Source: a virus. From it: a stretch of 51,624 nucleotides of DNA. Below are positions 21,943 to 51,624 of the stretch, piece by piece. A program made the translations under genes and the position numbers. The stretch's first letter is position 1. Each line of letters starts with the position of its first letter. The stretch covers positions 1 to 51,624 of IMG/VR virus record IMGVR_UViG_3300017963_000074, one strand, 5' to 3'. Under the pieces are notes generated by a model. The model saw nothing but the letters and a program-made list of their open reading frames with translations. It did not search any database and was not told the DNA's origin.

Positions 21943-22311
21943 TTAATTCTGAGCTGCCCGCTTTATTCCAGCAAGATACAGCGTTCCAGTCCCAGAGACA
22001 GCCTCTACAATCAACCTTCTGAGCTTAACCTCTGGCCCTATCTTCAAACCCATCCCGCTTTCCAGCCGGATTTGAAATCTTGTTGCAGTACTATCAGTAT
22101 CCCCAGGAGAACCAAACTGTAGAAAAATCGAACATCCTTGCGACCAGAGAGTAACCTGATCCCAGTCCCTCGGGAAGGTTGTATCCACAGCCGTAGTGGA
22201 CACAGCCAGGGAGTCTGTCCAGAGGTAGTACATCTGCTGCTGAGCCTCTGTCTCTCCCTGGAAAGCAATAAAAAAGGCGATTGCTAGAATCGCCACTATT
22301 AGGAATCTCAT
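21943..22311 (-). CDS. Secreted small beta protein (122 aa)
   Basis: A strong signal peptide (MRFLIVAILAIAFFIAF, cleavage near GETEA/QQ) precedes a beta-rich domain of about 100 residues (VTLWSQGCSIFLQFG, RFQIRLESGMGL, LRRLIVEAVSGTGTLYL). ATG 22311 overlaps the terminase small subunit stop, so it is the second gene of the late unit. The mature part resembles short fibre-head or adhesin modules. It probably works with the downstream 840-aa fibre-like protein, also exported. Function not known. Confidence 0.6.
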   Translation of the reverse strand: MRFLIVAILAIAFFIAFQGETEAQQQMYYLWTDSLAVSTTAVDTTFPRDWDQVTLWSQGCSIFLQFGSPGDTDSTATRFQIRLESGMGLKIGPEVKLRRLIVEAVSGTGTLYLAGIKRAAQN

Positions 22312-22793
22312 TTTGTTTCCTCCTCTTCTACAACCTCAGCTTCCTCAGCGGAAAGGTTCATATCTCTCGCCATTTTCTTTATACCATCTATATCATCCCT
22401 CGTCAAGTGTGAGACAGAGACCTTCTTCTCGATCGCCTTGAAGCCACCCATCTCTAGGAGGTCCTTCGCCGCGGCCTTTCTGACCGGCCAGTCTGCCTCT
22501 TCCATCGCTTCCTCCATTGTATCAACTGCTTTTGGAAGAAGCTCGTGTATGCGTTGCTGTATGCCTATTACCGAAGTATCCCGACGGGCATGGAGGAGAC
22601 TCAACAACCTCCTCCCTTCCGGACTGTTCCTCACATTCGATACCGTTTGAGGAGAGACATTCAATCTATCTGCAATTGCCTTCCCCTTCATACCCAACGC
22701 CAGAAGCCTCAAAATCTCATGGTGAGTATCCCAAAGCTTCGTAATGGCATACGCCTTATCACCGTCAGCATTTCTCCTTTTATCTACCTTCAA
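22308..22793 (-). CDS. Helix-turn-helix protein, candidate terminase small subunit (161 aa)
   Basis: Residues 25-56 form a clear helix-turn-helix (ILRLLALGMKGKAIADRLN followed by VSPQTVSNV). The rest is helical (TMEEAMEEADWPVRKAA), ending in a Glu-rich tail. This N-terminal HTH plus helical oligomerisation region matches many small terminases, which recognise pac/cos DNA and feed TerL. The gap of about 9 kb to terL is unusual, so a DNA-binding regulator is an alternative. The TTG start at 22793 follows GGGAGGAG. It is preceded by the 44-aa ORF and the late promoter. Confidence 0.6.
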   Translation of the reverse strand: MKVDKRRNADGDKAYAITKLWDTHHEILRLLALGMKGKAIADRLNVSPQTVSNVRNSPEGRRLLSLLHARRDTSVIGIQQRIHELLPKAVDTMEEAMEEADWPVRKAAAKDLLEMGGFKAIEKKVSVSHLTRDDIDGIKKMARDMNLSAEEAEVVEEEETK

Positions 22794-23458: not shown

Positions 23459-23851
23459 ATGGAAACTCTAAAACCAGAACACCTCAACCAAATCATTGAA
23501 AACGTTAAAGTTGCTATCACTCAAAGCGTGAAAGAGACCGAAGATCATGATTCTATTGAACTTGAGATAGAATATGACTTTTCGGGCGTAACTCTTCAAC
23601 AATTAATAGCTTATGCGGTGCAGCAACTCCGGATCAAAAGAGCAGCCAAATGTCGTAAAATGGGCAGCGAGTGGATGCAGGCCCATAAGAAACAGACAGT
23701 TACGGTTGCGGAAGATTTTGGCCGGAAAGCTGCTGTTCCTAAAGAAGTTACGTTGAAGAACTTCATCACGGGTTTGAGTGATGCAGAAAAAGCTGCATTT
23801 CTGAAGGATCCTGAAGGATTCTTGAACAAGCGGATTGCAACTTCTAAATAA
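23459..23851 (+). CDS. Cassette gene of unknown function (130 aa)
   Basis: A mixed alpha/beta protein: a charged helix of about 30 residues (IIENVKVAITQSVKE), a strand with IELEIEYDFSG, a helix (LQQLIAYAVQQL), a basic middle, and a C-terminal SDAEKAAFLKDPEGF. The pattern resembles the 117-aa protein at 27593 (YEFGxNL and SPEEKKALL), so the two may be distant relatives. The gene has its own promoter, its own strong terminator and flanking inverted repeats, which suggests a moron-like unit. Codon use includes CGT and CGG Arg codons, rarer elsewhere. No homolog is recognised. Confidence 0.6.
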   Translation: METLKPEHLNQIIENVKVAITQSVKETEDHDSIELEIEYDFSGVTLQQLIAYAVQQLRIKRAAKCRKMGSEWMQAHKKQTVTVAEDFGRKAAVPKEVTLKNFITGLSDAEKAAFLKDPEGFLNKRIATSK

Positions 23852-23863
23852 TCAATAGTTCAT

Positions 23864-23880
23864 AATCATTGCCCATGATG
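23864..23880. repeat. Inverted repeat, right arm, flanking the cassette gene
   Basis: Matches the reverse complement of 23404-23420 at 15 of 17 bases. It lies between the stop codon and the terminator 23886-23912. Confidence 0.65.
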
Positions 23881-23885
23881 AACAC

Positions 23886-23912
23886 AAACCCGCCCAAGAG
23901 GCGGGTTTTTTT
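23886..23912 (+). terminator. Rho-independent terminator of the cassette
   Basis: A perfect 9-bp stem (AAACCCGCC with GGCGGGTTT) closes a 5-nt loop and runs into seven Ts. This is the strongest terminator in the window and isolates the cassette from downstream genes. Confidence 0.95.
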
Positions 23913-23966
23913 ATGCCTGCTTACCATCGGGAGTGGATACATAGTGGCATACATTCGCTCCTTATG

Positions 23967-23983
23967 TTTTCATATTTTGAAAA
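23967..23983. promoter_or_regulatory. Palindromic 17-mer, copy 3
   Basis: TTTTCATATTTTGAAAA, one mismatch from a perfect dyad. The flanks CTTATG on the left and TGTACCTAT on the right are shared with copies 4 and 5. It lies 55 bp after the cassette terminator. Confidence 0.8.
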
Positions 23984-24044
23984 TGTACCTATTGGTAAAT
24001 ATAGGGAACTGTAGACATGTATGATTGTATGTTGTAGTGGTATG

Positions 24045-24292
24045 CATGTATACATATATGGATGTAGAAGGGGGGTCGCCTCCATTGTTGGGTTTGAAAA
24101 CGTAAGTTTTTTAAAATTTCCCTCACTTTCTTCCAATTTCCCTTATTTTTAATCTATTAAAAAAAAATAAAAAAAAATAAAGGAAGGACTAGACCACTTG
24201 CAAGGAGAATAAGGGGTTCTGTGCGAGGAAGTTACGTTTTCATGTTGGACAAATGGGGCGACCCCCAGACTACTTACATATATGCATATTTG
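24045..24292. repeat. Large inverted repeat with phased A-tract; candidate origin/control element
   Basis: Left arm 24045-24105 and right arm 24232-24292, 61 nt each, match in inverted orientation at about 44 of 61 positions with no gap. Three blocks are perfect: CATATATG, GGGGGTCGCC and TGAAAACGTAA, with identical 14-bp spacing between the last two on both sides. The 126-nt centre contains TTTTTAAT/ATTAAAAA and two A9 runs ten bases apart (24159-24177), a pattern of intrinsically bent DNA. It resembles binding sites for a dimeric initiator or regulator around an unwinding region. No coding frame is supported. The function is inferred. Confidence 0.8.
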
Positions 24293-24305
24293 TGTACACG
24301 CTACG

Positions 24306-24321
24306 GGTATACAGGTATACA
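24306..24321. repeat. Tandem 8-bp direct repeat GGTATACA
   Basis: Two adjacent copies of GGTATACA just outside the right arm of the large inverted repeat. GTATAC is itself palindromic, and similar GTATACAT occurs in the left arm. Confidence 0.6.
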
Positions 24322-24327
24322 AGAGAG

Positions 24328-24358
24328 TGTTTGGGGGAATAGATGTTTGGGGGAGTAG
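24328..24358. repeat. Tandem 15-bp direct repeat upstream of P2
   Basis: TGTTTGGGGGAATAG at 24328-24342 and TGTTTGGGGGAGTAG at 24344-24358 differ at one base and have a 16-bp period. They lie 24 bp upstream of the P2 -35 box and could bind an activator or act as iterons. Confidence 0.7.
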
Positions 24359-24381
24359 TGGGTGTTTTTTTGTGTGAGGTA

Positions 24382-24410
24382 TTGCAATTGTGGATTTTAT
24401 TTTGTATATT
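24382..24410 (+). promoter_or_regulatory. Promoter P2 (TTGCAA-N17-TATATT)
   Basis: -35 TTGCAA at 24382-24387, 17-bp spacer ending TTTTG, -10 TATATT at 24405-24410. It drives the small operon 24455-25400. Confidence 0.8.
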
Positions 24411-24454
24411 GTGTATGTTGGATTGTAGATATGAGAGAAAGGAGGTGAGAGAGG

Positions 24455-24658
24455 ATGACTATAAGTGAGGAGGGAGGAGGTAAGAACTTCGCTGAGCTGG
24501 CTATGGATGTGAAGAGGTTGGAGAGAGATCTTATGGTGAGTTTAAAGGAGAGACTCGATCCGGGTAGTATGGTGCTGATAGCTGGGAGTATAGCGGAGAT
24601 TGTAGAGCTGCTGGAGAAGGTGTATGTGAAGTTGAGTGAGTTGAGGAGGAGAGAGTAA
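24455..24658 (+). CDS. Small helical protein, first gene of the P2 operon (67 aa)
   Basis: An almost wholly helical, charged sequence with two heptad-like stretches (ELAMDVKRLERDL and AEIVELLEKVYVKLSELRRRE). ATG 24455 has AAGGAGGTGAG upstream. The family is unknown. Small helical proteins expressed first are often host-takeover factors, but nothing specific supports this here. Confidence 0.6.
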   Translation: MTISEEGGGKNFAELAMDVKRLERDLMVSLKERLDPGSMVLIAGSIAEIVELLEKVYVKLSELRRRE

Positions 24659-25422: not shown

Positions 25423-25465
25423 ATCCCCCCTTTTGCCAGTCCAAGGTAGAAGGGGGATTTTTTTT
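25423..25465 (+). terminator. Terminator of the P2 operon
   Basis: ATCCCCC pairs with GGGGGAT across a 20-nt loop and is followed by eight Ts (25458-25465). It ends the operon 24455-25400. Confidence 0.85.
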
Positions 25466-25606: not shown

Positions 25607-25981
25607 ATGAACAGACCTACCACCACCTACCAAGCCCGCTTAGACGTCCGGTCGATAGCCACAGTAATAAAAGCCTTTCAATCTATGAACACTCCTATCA
25701 GGAATAGAAGCAATCTTATCTGGATGGTGTTAGAGCATTTTGTGGATATTCTTGTTAATAACGGAGTGGTAGAGAGGGTGGAGGATATTGAGGAAGCTAT
25801 GAACATTATTAACAACAGCGGGTTGCCTCTCATAGATAAGCGCACTACAAATAAGGAACTTCTTGCAGCTATCAAGGAGCATAGATTTGGGAAGCTGGAT
25901 AAAGATAGGATAAGAGCACTGGCTGAGAGAGGAGCAAAGATGATAGAGGAGGAGCTAGATGGAGGGAATACAGAGTTATGA
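25607..25981 (+). CDS. Possible ribbon-helix-helix DNA-binding protein (124 aa)
   Basis: The opening TYQARLDVRSIATVIKAFQ followed by SNLIWMVLEHFVDIL has the strand-helix-helix order of RHH regulators (MetJ/Arc). The rest is helical and charged with an acidic tail. The gene has its own promoter and sits just after the dyad copy 4, so it could be a regulator that binds such dyads; that link is speculative. ATG 25607 has AAGGAGG upstream. Confidence 0.5.
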   Translation: MNRPTTTYQARLDVRSIATVIKAFQSMNTPIRNRSNLIWMVLEHFVDILVNNGVVERVEDIEEAMNIINNSGLPLIDKRTTNKELLAAIKEHRFGKLDKDRIRALAERGAKMIEEELDGGNTEL

Positions 25982-27592: not shown

Positions 27593-27946
27593 ATGCCTCA
27601 AGAAGTGAACGTCACGAAGGAGGTGGACGGAGAGAAGAAGTCTGCATCCGTCCAGTACGAATTCGGCAGCAACCTCGAGGAAGCTGTTGAGCTCTTTGGC
27701 GGAGATGTTATTTTCAACAACTTCCGCCAGTCTGCAGTTATCTCCCTGCAGGGTATTCTCCGCAGGCATCTGGCCAATGGTAAGACTCAGGGCGAGCTCC
27801 AAACCATTGCAGATGGCTGGAAGCCTGGAGTTGTGTCCAGGACAGGCAAGAGCAAAGTGGAGAAGGCGCGCGACGCCTTCGCTGCTATGTCTCCGGAGGA
27901 GAAGAAGGCCCTTCTAGCCGAACTGCGGGAGATGGCTCGAGGGTAG
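27593..27946 (+). CDS. Hypothetical protein (117 aa)
   Basis: The sequence starts with a strand region (SASVQYEFGSNLEEAVELFG), then a helix (SAVISLQGILRRHL), a Gly/Lys-rich turn, and a C-terminal FAAMSPEEKKALLAEL helix. The order resembles the 130-aa cassette protein at 23459, suggesting an ancient pair. Its codon use is rather GC-rich (GAGAAGAAG, CGCGCGAC). AAGGAGGTCTGAA precedes ATG. It ends 16 bp before a strong terminator. Confidence 0.55.
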   Translation: MPQEVNVTKEVDGEKKSASVQYEFGSNLEEAVELFGGDVIFNNFRQSAVISLQGILRRHLANGKTQGELQTIADGWKPGVVSRTGKSKVEKARDAFAAMSPEEKKALLAELREMARG

Positions 27947-34285: not shown

Positions 34286-34605
34286 ATATGGAAGAGGCTA
34301 TGCAGATTGCCGACAAGCTCTTGAAAGAGGATGCTGTACAGAGCTTTCACAGTCATGGTAATATAACAAGAATATGTCTCCTCATATCCAAGATGAAGCC
34401 TGAGGATATGACTGAAGAACGTGGAATGGGTCTATGCTTTAGTGCCGCCTGTCTGGGAGTGAAAAAGGGCTATGCAGCATTTACCTATGTTGATATTCCT
34501 GACAAAGACTTAAGAAATGTAACAGGTACTGTCTATATGGTAAAGCCTGATCTCATTTCAGAACTACAATCTCTTCTTCACTTCATCTCAGGGAGGGTAA
34601 AGTGA
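34282..34605 (+). CDS. Hypothetical protein (107 aa)
   Basis: Alpha/beta with a helix at the start, Cys/Ala-rich middle (GMGLCFSAACLGVKKG) and a strand (TVYMVKPD). The ATG 34282 overlaps the previous gene, and the end overlaps the ParB-methyltransferase start by 4 bp. Unknown. Confidence 0.5.
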   Translation: MNMEEAMQIADKLLKEDAVQSFHSHGNITRICLLISKMKPEDMTEERGMGLCFSAACLGVKKGYAAFTYVDIPDKDLRNVTGTVYMVKPDLISELQSLLHFISGRVK

Positions 34606-35957
34606 AACTAAAGATAGTCTCCCTCGACAGCATAAAGGTAGGCGATCGTTTCAGGAAGGAATACAAGGACATCCCTAACCTCGTTGTCTCCATCTCCATA
34701 AATGGCCTCATCCAACCTCTCGCTGTCTCAGAAGGCAAGGATGGAACATACAACCTTCTTGCCGGCGGGAGAAGGTACATGGCCTGCCAGAAGGTAAAGA
34801 GTATCAGGGAGAAGGGAGTCCCTGTCCGGATCTATCCAGATAGTATAACAGAGAAAGATGCCCGTGCGATAGAACTGGCCGAGAATATAGATAGGGAGGA
34901 CCTCACCTGGCAGGAAGAGGTCGCTCTCAAGGCTGAAGTCCATCGCCTCCAGTGTGAGATACACGGACTTAAAAATACAAAGGAAGGAGAGGGATGGACA
35001 CAAGGGAAGACGGCCGAACTCTTCGGTGTCTCTCAAGCTAAAATATCCACCGACCTGGATCTGGCTGAGTTTGTGGAAGCTATCCCTGAACTCAAGGAAG
35101 CAAAGACAAAGGATGATGCTATAAAGGTGATGAAGAAAACTGTAAGGGATCATAAGAGAAGGAAGGTTGTAGAGGCTCTGAAGGAAGAGAGGGCAAAAAA
35201 ACCGGAGATGGCTCAGCAGGAGGAGTTGGTGAGAGGGTACAATATTGGAGACTTTCTCATTAAAGCTAAAGATATAGAGAAAGAATCTGTCAACCTGGTT
35301 GAGTTAGATCCTCCCTTCTCTATAAATCTGACGGATATAAAAAGGTACAAATCCCGCTTTGCTCAGTTGGTCAGTAGCTATGAAGAGAAGTCAACCGACA
35401 TCTATCCGGAATGGATAAAAGCTATTCTGCAAGAATCATATAGGATTCTCAAACCCAACAGCTGGCTTCTTTTGTGGTTTGCTCCTGATCCTTGGTTTGA
35501 ACTGATGCACAACATTGCCCAGTCAGTTGGCTTTGAAGGGAACAAAATCCCAGCTATCTGGGACAAGCTCCGCCCCGGCCAGTGCAACACCCCCAAGCGA
35601 TACCTCGCATCCTCCTACGAAATGTTCTTCTATTTCAGGAAGGGAGATGCTAGGATAGTAAAGGAGGGTAGAAGCAATGTCTATTCCTACCGACCCGTCC
35701 CGTCCCAACATAAGGAACATGCTACAGAAAAGCCGGTCGAGCTCTATGAAGATCTTCTGGCCACGTTCGTCACAGAGGGTGCGCATATCGCTTCGCCGTG
35801 TTTGGGAAGTGGGAATGTCCTCCTGGCGGCGAACAACTACAACTGTACAGGCTTCGGCTACGACACTTCGCAGACACATAAAGATGCATTTATTCTAAAG
35901 GTTCATGCGAGGAAGCCTGGGACCTATGCAAGCTATGATGAAAGGAGTAACACATGA
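34602..35957 (+). CDS. ParB-domain / N6-adenine DNA methyltransferase fusion (451 aa)
   Basis: Residues 1-115 are a ParB/Srx domain: NGLIQPLAVS, LLAGGRRYMA and AENIDREDLTWQEE. Residues 128-160 are a helix-turn-helix (TQGKTAELFGVSQAKIS). From about 215 there is a DNA methylase of the beta class, with DPPF (motif IV) at 236-239, then HKEHATEKPVELYEDL, and PCLGSGN (motif I) at 399-405. Motif IV before motif I and TEKP indicate D12-type/beta MTase. It may methylate adenines to protect phage DNA or mark replication or packaging sites. The ParB part may bring sequence specificity or an NTPase/nuclease function. The GTG start 34602 overlaps the previous stop. Confidence 0.9.
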   Translation: MKLKIVSLDSIKVGDRFRKEYKDIPNLVVSISINGLIQPLAVSEGKDGTYNLLAGGRRYMACQKVKSIREKGVPVRIYPDSITEKDARAIELAENIDREDLTWQEEVALKAEVHRLQCEIHGLKNTKEGEGWTQGKTAELFGVSQAKISTDLDLAEFVEAIPELKEAKTKDDAIKVMKKTVRDHKRRKVVEALKEERAKKPEMAQQEELVRGYNIGDFLIKAKDIEKESVNLVELDPPFSINLTDIKRYKSRFAQLVSSYEEKSTDIYPEWIKAILQESYRILKPNSWLLLWFAPDPWFELMHNIAQSVGFEGNKIPAIWDKLRPGQCNTPKRYLASSYEMFFYFRKGDARIVKEGRSNVYSYRPVPSQHKEHATEKPVELYEDLLATFVTEGAHIASPCLGSGNVLLAANNYNCTGFGYDTSQTHKDAFILKVHARKPGTYASYDERSNT

Positions 35958-38419
35958 GTGTAATAGTCCCTCCCATTGGCCCTCTCGATGCAGATATCTG
36001 TCTGGTCGGAGAGGCTCCTGGGGAGGTGGAGGAAAGAAAGGGAGAACCATTTGTAGGGCCGGCCGGTCAGCTCCTCGATAAACTCCTCAAGGCAGCTGGT
36101 ATCCTCCGTCGGCAGTGTTACATCACCAACGTTATAAAGGTCAGGCCTCCCAACAATAAGATCTCGGAATATCTGAATCTCAAAGGAAAATACCCTGTCG
36201 AGACTGATCTTTATAAGGAACATAGGGATAACCTCAAAAAGGAGCTAGAGAAAGTAAAGAGCAATATCATCGTTACCTTAGGTCAGCCCGCCTTGTATGC
36301 TTTGACAGGCCACTACAATAAGATAACTGTCCGGCGGGGAAGTATGTATGACAGTACTCTCCTTCCTGGCCGGAAAGTTCTGGCGACTGCCCACCCGTCC
36401 TATGTCCTTCGTGGCAACTACTTCTTCCGCCACTTTATTGTCTTCGATCTTCTCAAGGCAAAGGAACAGGCTGCCTTTCCAGAACTCAAACTCCCCCAGC
36501 GGGATCTGATTGTATCCCCCTCCTTTGAACAGTGCACAAGTTTTCTGGATATGATCCTGGAGGATAAGCCTCTAACTGCCTTCGACATCGAGGTTTACAA
36601 CGAAGAGGTATCCTGTATCTCCTTCGCTCCCTCCTCCAAGGTTTCTATCTGCATCCCCTTCATCTACCGTGGAAAGGAATACTTCACTATCGACAAAGAG
36701 GCGTATATCTGGAGCCTCATTGCCAAGATTCTGGAGAGTAATTCTATCAAAAAGCTAGCACAGAATGGTATCTTTGATTCCTCCTTCCTATACCGCAGAT
36801 ATGGCATCCGGACGAGGAACTTCGACGACACTATGATCGGGCAGAACATAGTCACACCTGATTTCCCAAAGGGGTTGGACTTCATCTGTTCTGTCTATAC
36901 TGATGAACCATACTACAAAGACGAAGGAAAGAAATGGTTCTCCTTTGGTGAATCTGAGCTGGCCTTTTGGGAGTACAACGCTAAGGATAGTGCCGTCCTC
37001 CATGATGCCTGGCCGAAGATAGAGAAGAATATAAAGAGGTTTGGGAATGACCAGACCTATGAGAGACAGAACAAGCTGAATGAGATCCTCCTATTCATGC
37101 AGGAGAAGGGCATCCGGATGGATGTGGAGGGGATAAAGGAACAGTTCAAGAGGAATGAGACTGAGCTGGGAGAACTGGAGGAGAGGCTGAATAAGCTCTG
37201 TGGCTACGAGATCAACCACAACAGTCCAAAGCAACTCGCCCAATACTTCTACATTCAGAAGGGTATAAAGCCTTATATGAAGAAGGGTAGTATCACCACT
37301 GACGAGACGGCTATGATCCGGCTTGCTCGACGGGATTATGAGGAAGCTCAAATCATCCTCCGTCTTCGTCGCCTTACCAAGATGAACAGCAACTACTACA
37401 ACATCTCCAAGATCTCCTCCGACAACCGTCTCAGATGTTCATTCAACCCTGCTCGTACAAAGACCGGCAGGCTATCCTCCTCCGAAGATATCTTTGGGGA
37501 AGGCACTAACCTCCAGAACCAGCCTCACGAAGTCAAGCAATTCATGCTTGCTGATCCTGACCATCTGGCCTTTTCCATCGACCTTTCTCAAGCAGAGAAC
37601 AGAATCGTTGCTCACATCGCACCTGAACCCACAATGATCCAGGCCTTTGAAGAGGGAGATGTACACTCTCTAACTGCAGCTATGATAATGAAACGATACT
37701 ATCATGGCAAGATACCGGCCGGTATAACAGTCAGAAGCATCTCCCCGCTTGGTACAGGTGATCAGCCCTGGAGATTTTGGGGAAAGAAAGCTAACCACGG
37801 TCTTAACTACGGACAGGGTTATAAGAAGTTCGCTATCCAGAATCAACTAACCGAACCGGACTCCAAGCAGATTGTCAGCGGTTACTTCGAACTGTATCCA
37901 GGGATAAGAGCCTATCACAGATGGGTAGAAGATGATCTGAACAGGAACGACCGGATCCTTATGAACATGATGGGAAGAGTGAGAAAGTTCTTCGGAGCCT
38001 GGGGGCCGGATCTTTTCAATGAGGCATATAACTTCATCCCCCAAAGTACAGTTGGAGACATTATCAACGAGAGAGGGTTGATCTTTATCTACTATGACCA
38101 ACACCACTTCAAGGACGTAATCCTCCTCAACCAAATCCACGACAGTATTGAGTTCGAGATACCTGTATTGGCCGGCTTCGAGTACATGGCCCGCTCGATA
38201 AAAGCAATTGTCAAGAGTCTGGAGACTCCCATATCCTGGAGAGGACGGGAACTTATTATCCCTGCTGAAACCTGCTGTGGTCATAACCTCCTGGAACACA
38301 GCAAAGAGAATCCTCTTGGGATGAGAGAGCTAGACACAAAGCAACCATTAAAACAACTTGCATCCAACATAGAGAAAATCTATAGAGGTATAGAAGATGC
38401 AAAGCAGAAGGCTACCTGA
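35954..38419 (+). CDS. polA: UDG-like domain fused to family A DNA polymerase (821 aa)
   Basis: Residues 1-170 form a uracil-DNA glycosylase superfamily domain (family 4/5 motif GEAPGEVEERKGEPFVG, then TNVIKVRPPNN, then HPS at 147-149) without the N-terminal CxxC seen in Fe-S UDGs. The exonuclease domain has D211-x-E213, N271/D275 and Y341/D345. The polymerase domain has motif A (SIDLSQAE, D543), motif B R607, K611, Y619-G620, and motif C HDS at 729-731. The position equal to E. coli Phe762 is His615, and the usual Glu after HD is Ser. The UDG-like fusion is known from SPO1-type phages. Replicative polymerase for the phage. Confidence 0.93.
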   Translation: MSVIVPPIGPLDADICLVGEAPGEVEERKGEPFVGPAGQLLDKLLKAAGILRRQCYITNVIKVRPPNNKISEYLNLKGKYPVETDLYKEHRDNLKKELEKVKSNIIVTLGQPALYALTGHYNKITVRRGSMYDSTLLPGRKVLATAHPSYVLRGNYFFRHFIVFDLLKAKEQAAFPELKLPQRDLIVSPSFEQCTSFLDMILEDKPLTAFDIEVYNEEVSCISFAPSSKVSICIPFIYRGKEYFTIDKEAYIWSLIAKILESNSIKKLAQNGIFDSSFLYRRYGIRTRNFDDTMIGQNIVTPDFPKGLDFICSVYTDEPYYKDEGKKWFSFGESELAFWEYNAKDSAVLHDAWPKIEKNIKRFGNDQTYERQNKLNEILLFMQEKGIRMDVEGIKEQFKRNETELGELEERLNKLCGYEINHNSPKQLAQYFYIQKGIKPYMKKGSITTDETAMIRLARRDYEEAQIILRLRRLTKMNSNYYNISKISSDNRLRCSFNPARTKTGRLSSSEDIFGEGTNLQNQPHEVKQFMLADPDHLAFSIDLSQAENRIVAHIAPEPTMIQAFEEGDVHSLTAAMIMKRYYHGKIPAGITVRSISPLGTGDQPWRFWGKKANHGLNYGQGYKKFAIQNQLTEPDSKQIVSGYFELYPGIRAYHRWVEDDLNRNDRILMNMMGRVRKFFGAWGPDLFNEAYNFIPQSTVGDIINERGLIFIYYDQHHFKDVILLNQIHDSIEFEIPVLAGFEYMARSIKAIVKSLETPISWRGRELIIPAETCCGHNLLEHSKENPLGMRELDTKQPLKQLASNIEKIYRGIEDAKQKAT

Positions 38420-39581
38420 TTGGTATGACTCTTATATAGAGTACACAAAAGAGAGCGAGCCTCCTCCTCTCTACCATAAGTGGGTAGCCGTTTCTGTCAT
38501 TGCATCAGCGTTGCAAAGAAAGTGCTATCTCTTATGGGATGAGCCTACCTACCCCAATCTCTATGTTGTACTGGTAGGCCCGAGCGGTTGTAGGAAAGGA
38601 ACAGCTATGAGAGTTGGTAGGGGAATGTTGGACGAGATAGGTGCTACCCTCGCATCGGAGAGTGTGATAAGAGAGCAGCTAATTAATGAGCTAGAACAGG
38701 CAGGAGGTTCTTCACCTCTTGCAGATGGGACTCAGATCTCCCACTCCTCCATGACTATCTATTCCCCCGAACTCACAGTCTTCCTCGGCTATGATAAGAA
38801 GCAGTTGGTGATGGACCTCACTGACTGGTATGACTGCCATGATAGATGGAGATATTCAACTAAACATTCTGGTAAGAATGATATAAAGAATGTCTTTGTG
38901 AATTTGATAGGAGCTACAACCCCGGCCCTTTTACAGAGCACTATGACTAACGATGCTATTGGGGGAGGACTTACCAGCCGGATGATCTTTGCATATGCTG
39001 CGAAGAAGGGGAAAAGCATACCCTTTCCGTTTGCTATAAAGAAGAATGAAGTCCTCCACAAATCCCTCCTCGATGACCTCACAACTATCAGCCTTCTTGG
39101 TGGTAAGTTTAAAATAACAGATGCTTTTATAGAGCGCTGGGCACCTTTCTATCAAGAGGAGAATATCCAACAAATCTTTGATGACGATAGATTTGAAGGG
39201 TACATGCAAAGAAGAGCTAAACACATCCTCAAACTCTGTATGATATTCTCAGCATCCCGCTCGGAAGATATGTTGATAGACGTCCAGGACTTCGAACGTG
39301 CCCTTACCCTTCTCAAGGAAACAGAAAAAGTTATGTCCAAGGCCTTTGCAGGAATAGGTAAGAATGAGATGGCAGATGTTATGGAACGGGTGATGTCGCT
39401 TGTAGGGTTGGAAGGAAGGATAAAGTTTTCAGATATTGTAAAGCGCTTCTACTCCGACGCTAATGCAGATGAGATAGCTACCATTATCCGGACTATGCGG
39501 GCTATGGAGTTTGTAGAGACAAAGGTGGTTGGAGAGAAGAGTCAGGACTATTGGATTATTTATAAGGAGGAAAGGTCATGA
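38397..39581 (+). CDS. DUF3987-like P-loop protein, replicative helicase/primase candidate (394 aa)
   Basis: Walker A-like GPSGCRKGTAMR at 61-72, then YSPELTVFLG, LTDWYDCHDRWRYSTKH and NVFVNLIGATTP. This matches the DUF3987 family, often next to phage polymerases and thought to supply the helicase or helicase-primase function. No zinc-finger primase region is visible. It follows the polymerase gene with a 23-bp overlap. The C-terminus has a helix-turn-helix-like module (FSDIVKRFYSDANADEIATI). Helicase loading or unwinding activity is inferred. Confidence 0.78.
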   Translation: MQSRRLPDWYDSYIEYTKESEPPPLYHKWVAVSVIASALQRKCYLLWDEPTYPNLYVVLVGPSGCRKGTAMRVGRGMLDEIGATLASESVIREQLINELEQAGGSSPLADGTQISHSSMTIYSPELTVFLGYDKKQLVMDLTDWYDCHDRWRYSTKHSGKNDIKNVFVNLIGATTPALLQSTMTNDAIGGGLTSRMIFAYAAKKGKSIPFPFAIKKNEVLHKSLLDDLTTISLLGGKFKITDAFIERWAPFYQEENIQQIFDDDRFEGYMQRRAKHILKLCMIFSASRSEDMLIDVQDFERALTLLKETEKVMSKAFAGIGKNEMADVMERVMSLVGLEGRIKFSDIVKRFYSDANADEIATIIRTMRAMEFVETKVVGEKSQDYWIIYKEERS

Positions 39582-51270: not shown

Positions 51271-51537
51271 CTAGCTGCGTTTCTTGCGTTTGCTGACTTC
51301 TGTGCCGCTGCTCTTGACTTCGAGGAGCCTACCACCTTTCCCGTCTTTTTTTCCACTATCTTCCACGGCCTGGCTCCCGATCCCTTTCTCACTGTCACTG
51401 GCATTTATGACCTCCTCCCTGATCTTCTTAGCTTCATCAAGGGCTGCCTGTGCTTTTGCCAGGAGCTCAGAAGCTTTCTCCTGTCTCTCCTTCTTCCGCT
51501 TCTCAAACTCCTTCACCATCTGTTTCCTGATCCTCAT
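51271..51537 (-). CDS. Small coiled-coil structural protein (88 aa)
   Basis: A highly charged protein: residues 1-48 form a long amphipathic helix rich in Lys and Glu, and the rest is polar and Gly/Lys-rich. It spans the closure of the circle: its ATG at 51537 equals position 36, immediately after the stop of the 244-aa gene. Short coiled-coil proteins between adaptor and nozzle genes may be connectors, but no family is recognised. Confidence 0.55.
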   Translation of the reverse strand: MRIRKQMVKEFEKRKKERQEKASELLAKAQAALDEAKKIREEVINASDSEKGIGSQAVEDSGKKDGKGGRLLEVKSSGTEVSKRKKRS

Positions 51538-51624
51538 ATCAGCCCTCCATCCTGGAGCCGCCTGTTACCGACTGCTGGATAATATCGTCAGTGACTCCCT
51601 TCATCATGTCGTTGATTACTTCTA
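51502..51624. repeat. Terminal overlap, right copy
   Basis: Exact duplicate of bases 1-123. Position 51502 corresponds to position 1, so the gene starting at 51537 (minus strand) lies directly after the stop of the 244-aa gene at 38-772 on the circle. Confidence 0.93.

Follow-up and report, generated by a model that had tools for sequence, protein, structure and literature searches.

The gap of 603 bp without genes from which the early genes of this phage run rightwards (23851 to 24455) raises the question of what kind of element it holds. The window, i.e., the whole stretch of DNA analysed here, corresponds to a viral record 51,624 bases long that carries an exact direct repeat of 123 bases at its ends (1-123 and 51502-51624). 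Because of this terminal repeat, the record is a complete genome of about 51.5 kb that was assembled as a circle, with the break lying within a late gene. The leftward structural module encodes terminase, portal and major head protein. The rightward early module, which starts at the gap, encodes a PD-(D/E)XK exonuclease, a Dda-like helicase, a Sak4-like protein, a fusion of a ParB N-terminal domain with an N6/N4 DNA methylase (34602-35957), a polymerase of the PolA type with a uracil-DNA glycosylase domain at its N-terminus (35954-38419), and a DUF3987-type helicase-primase (38397-39581). The original prediction, made from the letters of this genome, had described a large imperfect inverted repeat in the gap, the length of which it gave correctly, and proposed sites for a dimeric protein around bent, easily melted DNA, with two main ideas for its function, an origin of replication and a master operator.

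The inverted repeat withstands recounting. The predicted arms (24045-24105 and 24232-24292) match at 44 of 61 positions without gaps, as had been reported, and the best ungapped repeat is somewhat longer, with a left arm at 24040-24108 (+ strand) and a right arm at 24229-24297 (- strand) matching at 49 of 69 positions around a loop of 120 bp. Its score (matches minus mismatches) is 29. Among 300 dinucleotide shuffles of the surrounding 600 bp, the highest score was 15, and in a second null set, consisting of 186 shuffles of the 4-kb loci of related phages, it was 19. As the score lies above all shuffles of both kinds, a chance origin is excluded, and with it the random similarity that had been named as one possible refutation of the prediction. 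No other inverted repeat in the whole window (loop of at least 30) reaches a score of 16 or more. Within the arms, the exact blocks GGGGGTCGCC (24071-24080, complement at 24257) and TGAAAACGTAA (24095-24105, complement at 24232) lie where they had been placed, 14 bp apart on both sides. The third block, CATATATG, is found twice, at 24053 and 24277; since it is self-complementary, its orientation is uninformative. The AT-rich core between the arms (24109-24228; 120 bp, 69% A+T), the proposed DNA unwinding region, contains the two expected A9 runs (24159-24167 and 24169-24177) in a 10-bp register, i.e., one helical turn apart.

The inverted repeat is, however, the inner portion of a larger mirrored element, the outer parts of which had been missed. 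From outside to inside, each half consists of inward-pointing TGTA repeats, a block with G/C runs and the shared AT-rich core. The left array (24010-24066, + strand, inward TGTA/GTA) has GTA at 24011, 24019, 24027, 24034, 24040, 24048 and 24064, with spacings of 8, 8, 7, 6, 8 and 16, and the right array (24271-24321, - strand, likewise inward) has TAC on the + strand at 24271, 24275, 24295, 24302, 24310 and 24318. The outermost repeats are mirror images with 8-8-7 bp spacing (GTA at 24011/24019/24027/24034 versus TAC at 24295/24302/24310/24318), and such a pair of mirrored four-unit GTA/TAC chains with 7-9 bp spacing occurs nowhere else in the window. Since the mirrored TGTA arrays run beyond the arms, the true extent of the element is about 24010-24321.

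Relatives were collected via the PolA-type DNA polymerase and anchored by HMM on the gene of the terminase small subunit (terS; in the window at 22308-22793, - strand), and 51 oriented loci were scanned for inverted repeats without any sequence model. At least 25 of them carry, upstream of terS, an ungapped inverted repeat with a score of 21 or more, a range never entered by the 186 shuffles mentioned above, and further loci carry weaker or gapped versions. In these phages, the repeat occupies the equivalent intergenic region at a distance of 1-4 kb upstream of terS; examples are the arms of L184 (78/107 matches), L058 (58/76), L186 (57/77), L169 (56/77), L080 (53/68) and L046 (46/57). Among named phages, the element is found in Desulfofustis phage MD01 (43054-43434), Microcystis phage Mel-JY34 (44116-44304), ctMlz233 (38405-38613) and podovirus ctLwi270 (35772-36018). 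It was not detected in some polymerase-bearing phages within the stretch examined, and of the more distant phages with related polymerases, Serbin and ctfzr933 lack it and Caulobacter phage Kuura shows no more than a weak repeat. The statistics exclude doubtful repeats in L166, L168, L175 and L199, and one inverted repeat of L069 was rejected, as it resembles a collagen-type coding repeat.

The syntenic position in the window is also marked by a small conserved gene to the left of the element (23459-23851, + strand; 130 aa, DF/DLSG motif). Its product has a confident predicted fold without a match in the PDB. Together with its paralogue at 27593-27946, it belongs to a family of small proteins that share a D(F/L)SG motif and a Q...R pattern; in relatives, one paralogue is often found to the left of the element and the other downstream of a gene for a ribbon-helix-helix (RHH)-like protein. 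Searches with single small flanking proteins (tblastn and locus searches) gave no matches, and an HMM built from syntenic copies was required.

In most pairs of phages, the arms cannot be aligned, each phage having its own, and a BLASTN search with the region of the window against named phages and plasmids gave no match, which means that the element is not conserved in sequence. What relatives do share is the symmetry of the arms, the inward polarity of the repeats, their 8-bp period, the AT-rich core and the frequent occurrence of C or G runs within the arms. TTGTA occurs 54 times in the inward and eight times in the reverse sense, and TGTAG 34 times and once, respectively. The distance from GTA to GTA peaks at 8 bp (44 intervals), and the self-identity of the arms at lag 8 is 0.346 versus about 0.28. 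The A+T fraction of the spacer is 0.69, compared with 0.56 for the locus and 0.58 for the flanks, and exceeds the locus mean in 30 of 31 loci; the best 40 bp of the spacer average 0.88 A+T versus 0.70 in flanks of equal length. The core ranges from 43 to 271 bp. Judged by this comparison of sequences, the element is a conserved DNA control element that has kept its geometry and not its sequence. Of the original proposal, protein-bound repeat arrays that face an AT-rich core are supported by the relatives, but neither the exact blocks nor the two A9 runs are kept; only the AT-richness of the core is, and bending by phased A-tracts is not a conserved property.

An inverted repeat at the start of early genes might act after transcription, the arms pairing as a regulatory hairpin in RNA. 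In agreement with this, the + strand of the window folds far more stably than its shuffles (z = -8.1), and the mismatches between its arms comprise eight G:T and only one A:C. The opposite strand, however, folds equally strongly (z = -9.0), as any inverted repeat does. Pooled over 31 loci, the mismatches (97 G:T, 70 A:C and 266 others) reveal no clear preference for G:U, and Rfam yielded no family above the gathering score and three sub-threshold matches, two of them over a terminator region at 23843-23914. Transcription of the element is not consistent either. In the window, a rightward sigma-70-like promoter, recognised by consensus match only (TTGCAA-17-TATATT, 24382-24410, + strand), lies immediately to the right of the element, and in relatives such rightward promoters are enriched beside it, on the left or on the right depending on the phage. 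In the clade of L172, L173, L174, L179 and L180, the left arm directly adjoins a near-consensus promoter (TTGACA-17-TATAAT or TATCAT), which places the element within the leader of the early transcript there; in many other phages, the promoter is on the right and does not transcribe the element, which is therefore not always transcribed. The strand-specific wobble and consistent transcription of a structured cis-regulatory RNA were thus not observed, and a leader RNA was rejected on the wobble test and the promoter positions. From the lack of a strong wobble preference and the early promoters on either side, it is concluded that the element acts as DNA and not as leader RNA; a regulatory hairpin is very improbable.

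The promoters also bear on the second of the original ideas. As an operator, the mirrored iterons would serve as sites for an early regulator, be it the RHH-like protein or a different one, and this regulator would control the early promoter nearby as well as its own gene, perhaps looping out the core. The enrichment of promoters adjoining the element is in line with this, as is the clade in which the promoter abuts the left arm, where in L172 and L173 a ribosome-binding site moreover abuts the right arm ahead of the gene for the RHH-like protein. RHH proteins are typically autoregulators. The window offers a further hint: the inner-arm block TGAAAACGTAA is similar to half of TTTTCATATTTTGAAAA, a palindrome located immediately to the left of the element (23967-23983) and present in about six intergenic copies in this phage. 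On the other hand, neither the side nor the distance of the promoter is fixed, the core has an unusually high A+T content and a length that differs among phages (43-271 bp) in a way that a phased loop would not easily tolerate, and four to seven iterons per side exceed the needs of a promoter. An operator remains a rival, although a rather unlikely one.

The palindrome has the core TTTTCAN5TGAAAA and the fuller form CCTTATATTTTCAAAATTTGAAAATATAAGG, with copies at 1114, 16923, 23967, 25475, 32360 and 41178 of the window. The copies are intergenic, several directly upstream of a ribosome-binding site. Allowing up to two mismatches, 11 matches are found versus 2.7 ± 1.6 in shuffles, and the palindrome is probably a phage-specific operator or promoter element. 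Rightward intrinsic terminators at 23886-23908 and 25426-25456 each precede one copy, as if a new transcription unit began at each pair.

With respect to the first idea, a replication origin, two typical components are found in the window and in relatives: tandem short repeats, in the form of inward TGTA-type iterons with an 8-bp period, and an adjacent AT-rich region, the spacer being richer in A+T than its flanks. In the origin of phage lambda, short repeats bound by a phage protein lie beside an AT-rich unwinding element. The origins oriL and oriR of SPP1 contain direct repeats and an AT-rich unwinding element, and the present element resembles them in its short repeats, at which a phage protein would bind as in SPP1, in the adjoining AT-rich DNA and in its location in the early region (PMC6316719). 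The SPP1 and lambda origins differ from it in that a direct array lies beside the AT-rich region, whereas two 8-bp arrays face each other across the core here. SPP1 oriL and lambda ori are furthermore situated within the initiator gene, whereas the present element is intergenic and no O- or gp38-like initiator was recognised. Its symmetry is closer to that of oriS of herpes simplex virus, where inverted UL9 boxes surround an AT-rich core; this likeness concerns the plan of mirror-symmetric sites only, without homologous proteins, and oriS has single boxes in place of the many short iterons per side. Members of known initiator families were not recognised among the early proteins searched (PHROGs and Pfam). 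The GC-skew check proposed with the original prediction is confounded: the minimum of the window coincides with the element, but across 32 relatives no change of skew is seen at this place, and skew follows the direction of transcription, which makes it uninformative on the origin. Taken together, the comparison favours the origin: in this phage lineage, the element is on balance probably a replication origin of the iteron type, the centre of which would unwind, and its mirror symmetry suits a bidirectional function.

A candidate for the iteron-binding protein is encoded nearby, at 25607-25981 (+ strand). This family of small RHH-like proteins (124 aa in the window) has members in 29 of the 51 oriented loci. 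Their genes are without exception on the + (early) strand and, in loci with a detected element, without exception on its early-gene side, typically 0.3-3.4 kb downstream. The protein of the window has no match among the RHH families of Pfam, but shows the pattern xRVDxxxLAT...SxSxLxR, and its AlphaFold model has confident helices following an extended N-terminus (mean pLDDT 93-98 for residues 11-70). A Foldseek search against the PDB returned NikR, MazE, CdbA, DinJ and VapB among few matches, none of them significant; the best RHH alignments were those with NikR (2.4 Å over 43 columns) and with MazE, CdbA and DinJ, all with E > 3. An RHH fold is predicted from the sequence pattern and the model. 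An Arg in the predicted β-strand is present in 18 loci, most of which have TGTA iterons (mean GTA excess of 3.5 per 100 bp). In five loci whose iterons are of other types, e.g., TTCATG, ATGATGTT or TATTCTA (mean GTA excess of 0.1), its place is taken by Thr, Ala or Trp. This suggests that the strand Arg tracks the TGTA iterons (permutation p = 0.007), but since the five loci fall at two positions on the tree, and thus represent only two independent changes, the link is suggestive and not proof. The RHH-like protein is possibly the binder of the iterons.

Tandem repeats of 7-11 bp bound by RHH proteins are known from ParR/parC, the omega heptads and the MetJ boxes, and the short tandem repeats beside an RHH-like gene resemble these arrays. 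Plasmid centromeres, too, contain arrays of 7-11 bp repeats to which RHH proteins bind, and paired 8-bp arrays next to such a gene match the form of a partition site bound by the RHH-like protein, as by ParR or omega on plasmids. The present arrays differ in that they mirror each other across an AT-rich core and in that the phage has no recognised partition motor: no ParA-, ParM- or TubZ-like protein was found among the window genes searched, and the ParB N-terminal domain is fused to a DNA methylase. Since the need for partition is not obvious in a phage of the lytic type either, a centromere is considered highly unlikely. RHH proteins act as repressors and as partition and relaxosome proteins, and to our knowledge none is known as an initiator.

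The position relative to terS suggests yet another function, that of a packaging site (pac), at which the terminase small subunit, an HTH protein, would bind both arrays and the large subunit would cut the core, comparable to pacL-pacC-pacR of SPP1 and the two hexamer clusters of P1 pac. There, two protein-binding regions flank a centre near the terminase genes; the element has the same layout, with binding being putative, and lies 1-4 kb upstream of terS in relatives. Circular assembly of the genomes, with breaks elsewhere, makes headful packaging possible. A pac site must, however, be polar, whereas the element is mirror-symmetric around an AT-rich core, and SPP1 pac overlaps the start of terS, whereas other genes intervene here, so that neither the polarity nor the location in or at terS is found. 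As an indirect indication, moreover, the recognition helix of TerS in the window, SPQTVSNVRNSP, closely matches that found in phages whose iterons differ, e.g., TPQTVSNVRNSP of L173, and TerS therefore does not track the iteron sequence. A pac site is thus improbable. A cos site or the end of a direct terminal repeat was rejected: the positions of terS in the contigs of relatives look random, and the 123-bp circular overlap lies in late genes.

For the replication origin, the following course of events may be envisaged. The two mirrored arrays of inward-pointing, 8-bp TGTA-type iterons would hold a phage-encoded protein symmetrically around the core, and this protein may be the small RHH-like product of 25607-25981. 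The AT-rich core would then melt, and the DUF3987-type helicase-primase and the PolA-type polymerase would load there and copy outwards in both directions. The sequences themselves show the mirrored plan, the period and polarity of the repeats, the AT-rich core, the fixed genomic position and conservation without a shared sequence, whereas the identity as an origin, the melting of the core and the binding of the RHH-like protein are what we infer. That an RHH protein assembles on two mirrored 8-bp iteron arrays and opens the AT-rich DNA between them is a tentative proposal, less likely than the origin itself. Were it correct, the co-evolution of site and protein would be rapid enough for the origin to retain its geometry and lose its sequence.

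A phage origin consisting of mirrored 8-bp iteron arrays was not found described in the open literature, most subscription literature lying outside the search, nor does the paper on phage MD01 mention such an element. The element would represent a variant of the iteron origin, and a search of this scope is not proof of novelty. It is a cis element invisible to alignment that was revealed by comparing architecture across relatives. If the origin reading is true, mirrored 8-bp iterons, an AT-rich core and a position by terS and an RHH-like gene would constitute a sequence-independent origin signature, applicable to a large environmental group of phages for which no replication start is otherwise assigned, and the RHH-like protein would be a candidate for a new class of origin-binding proteins.
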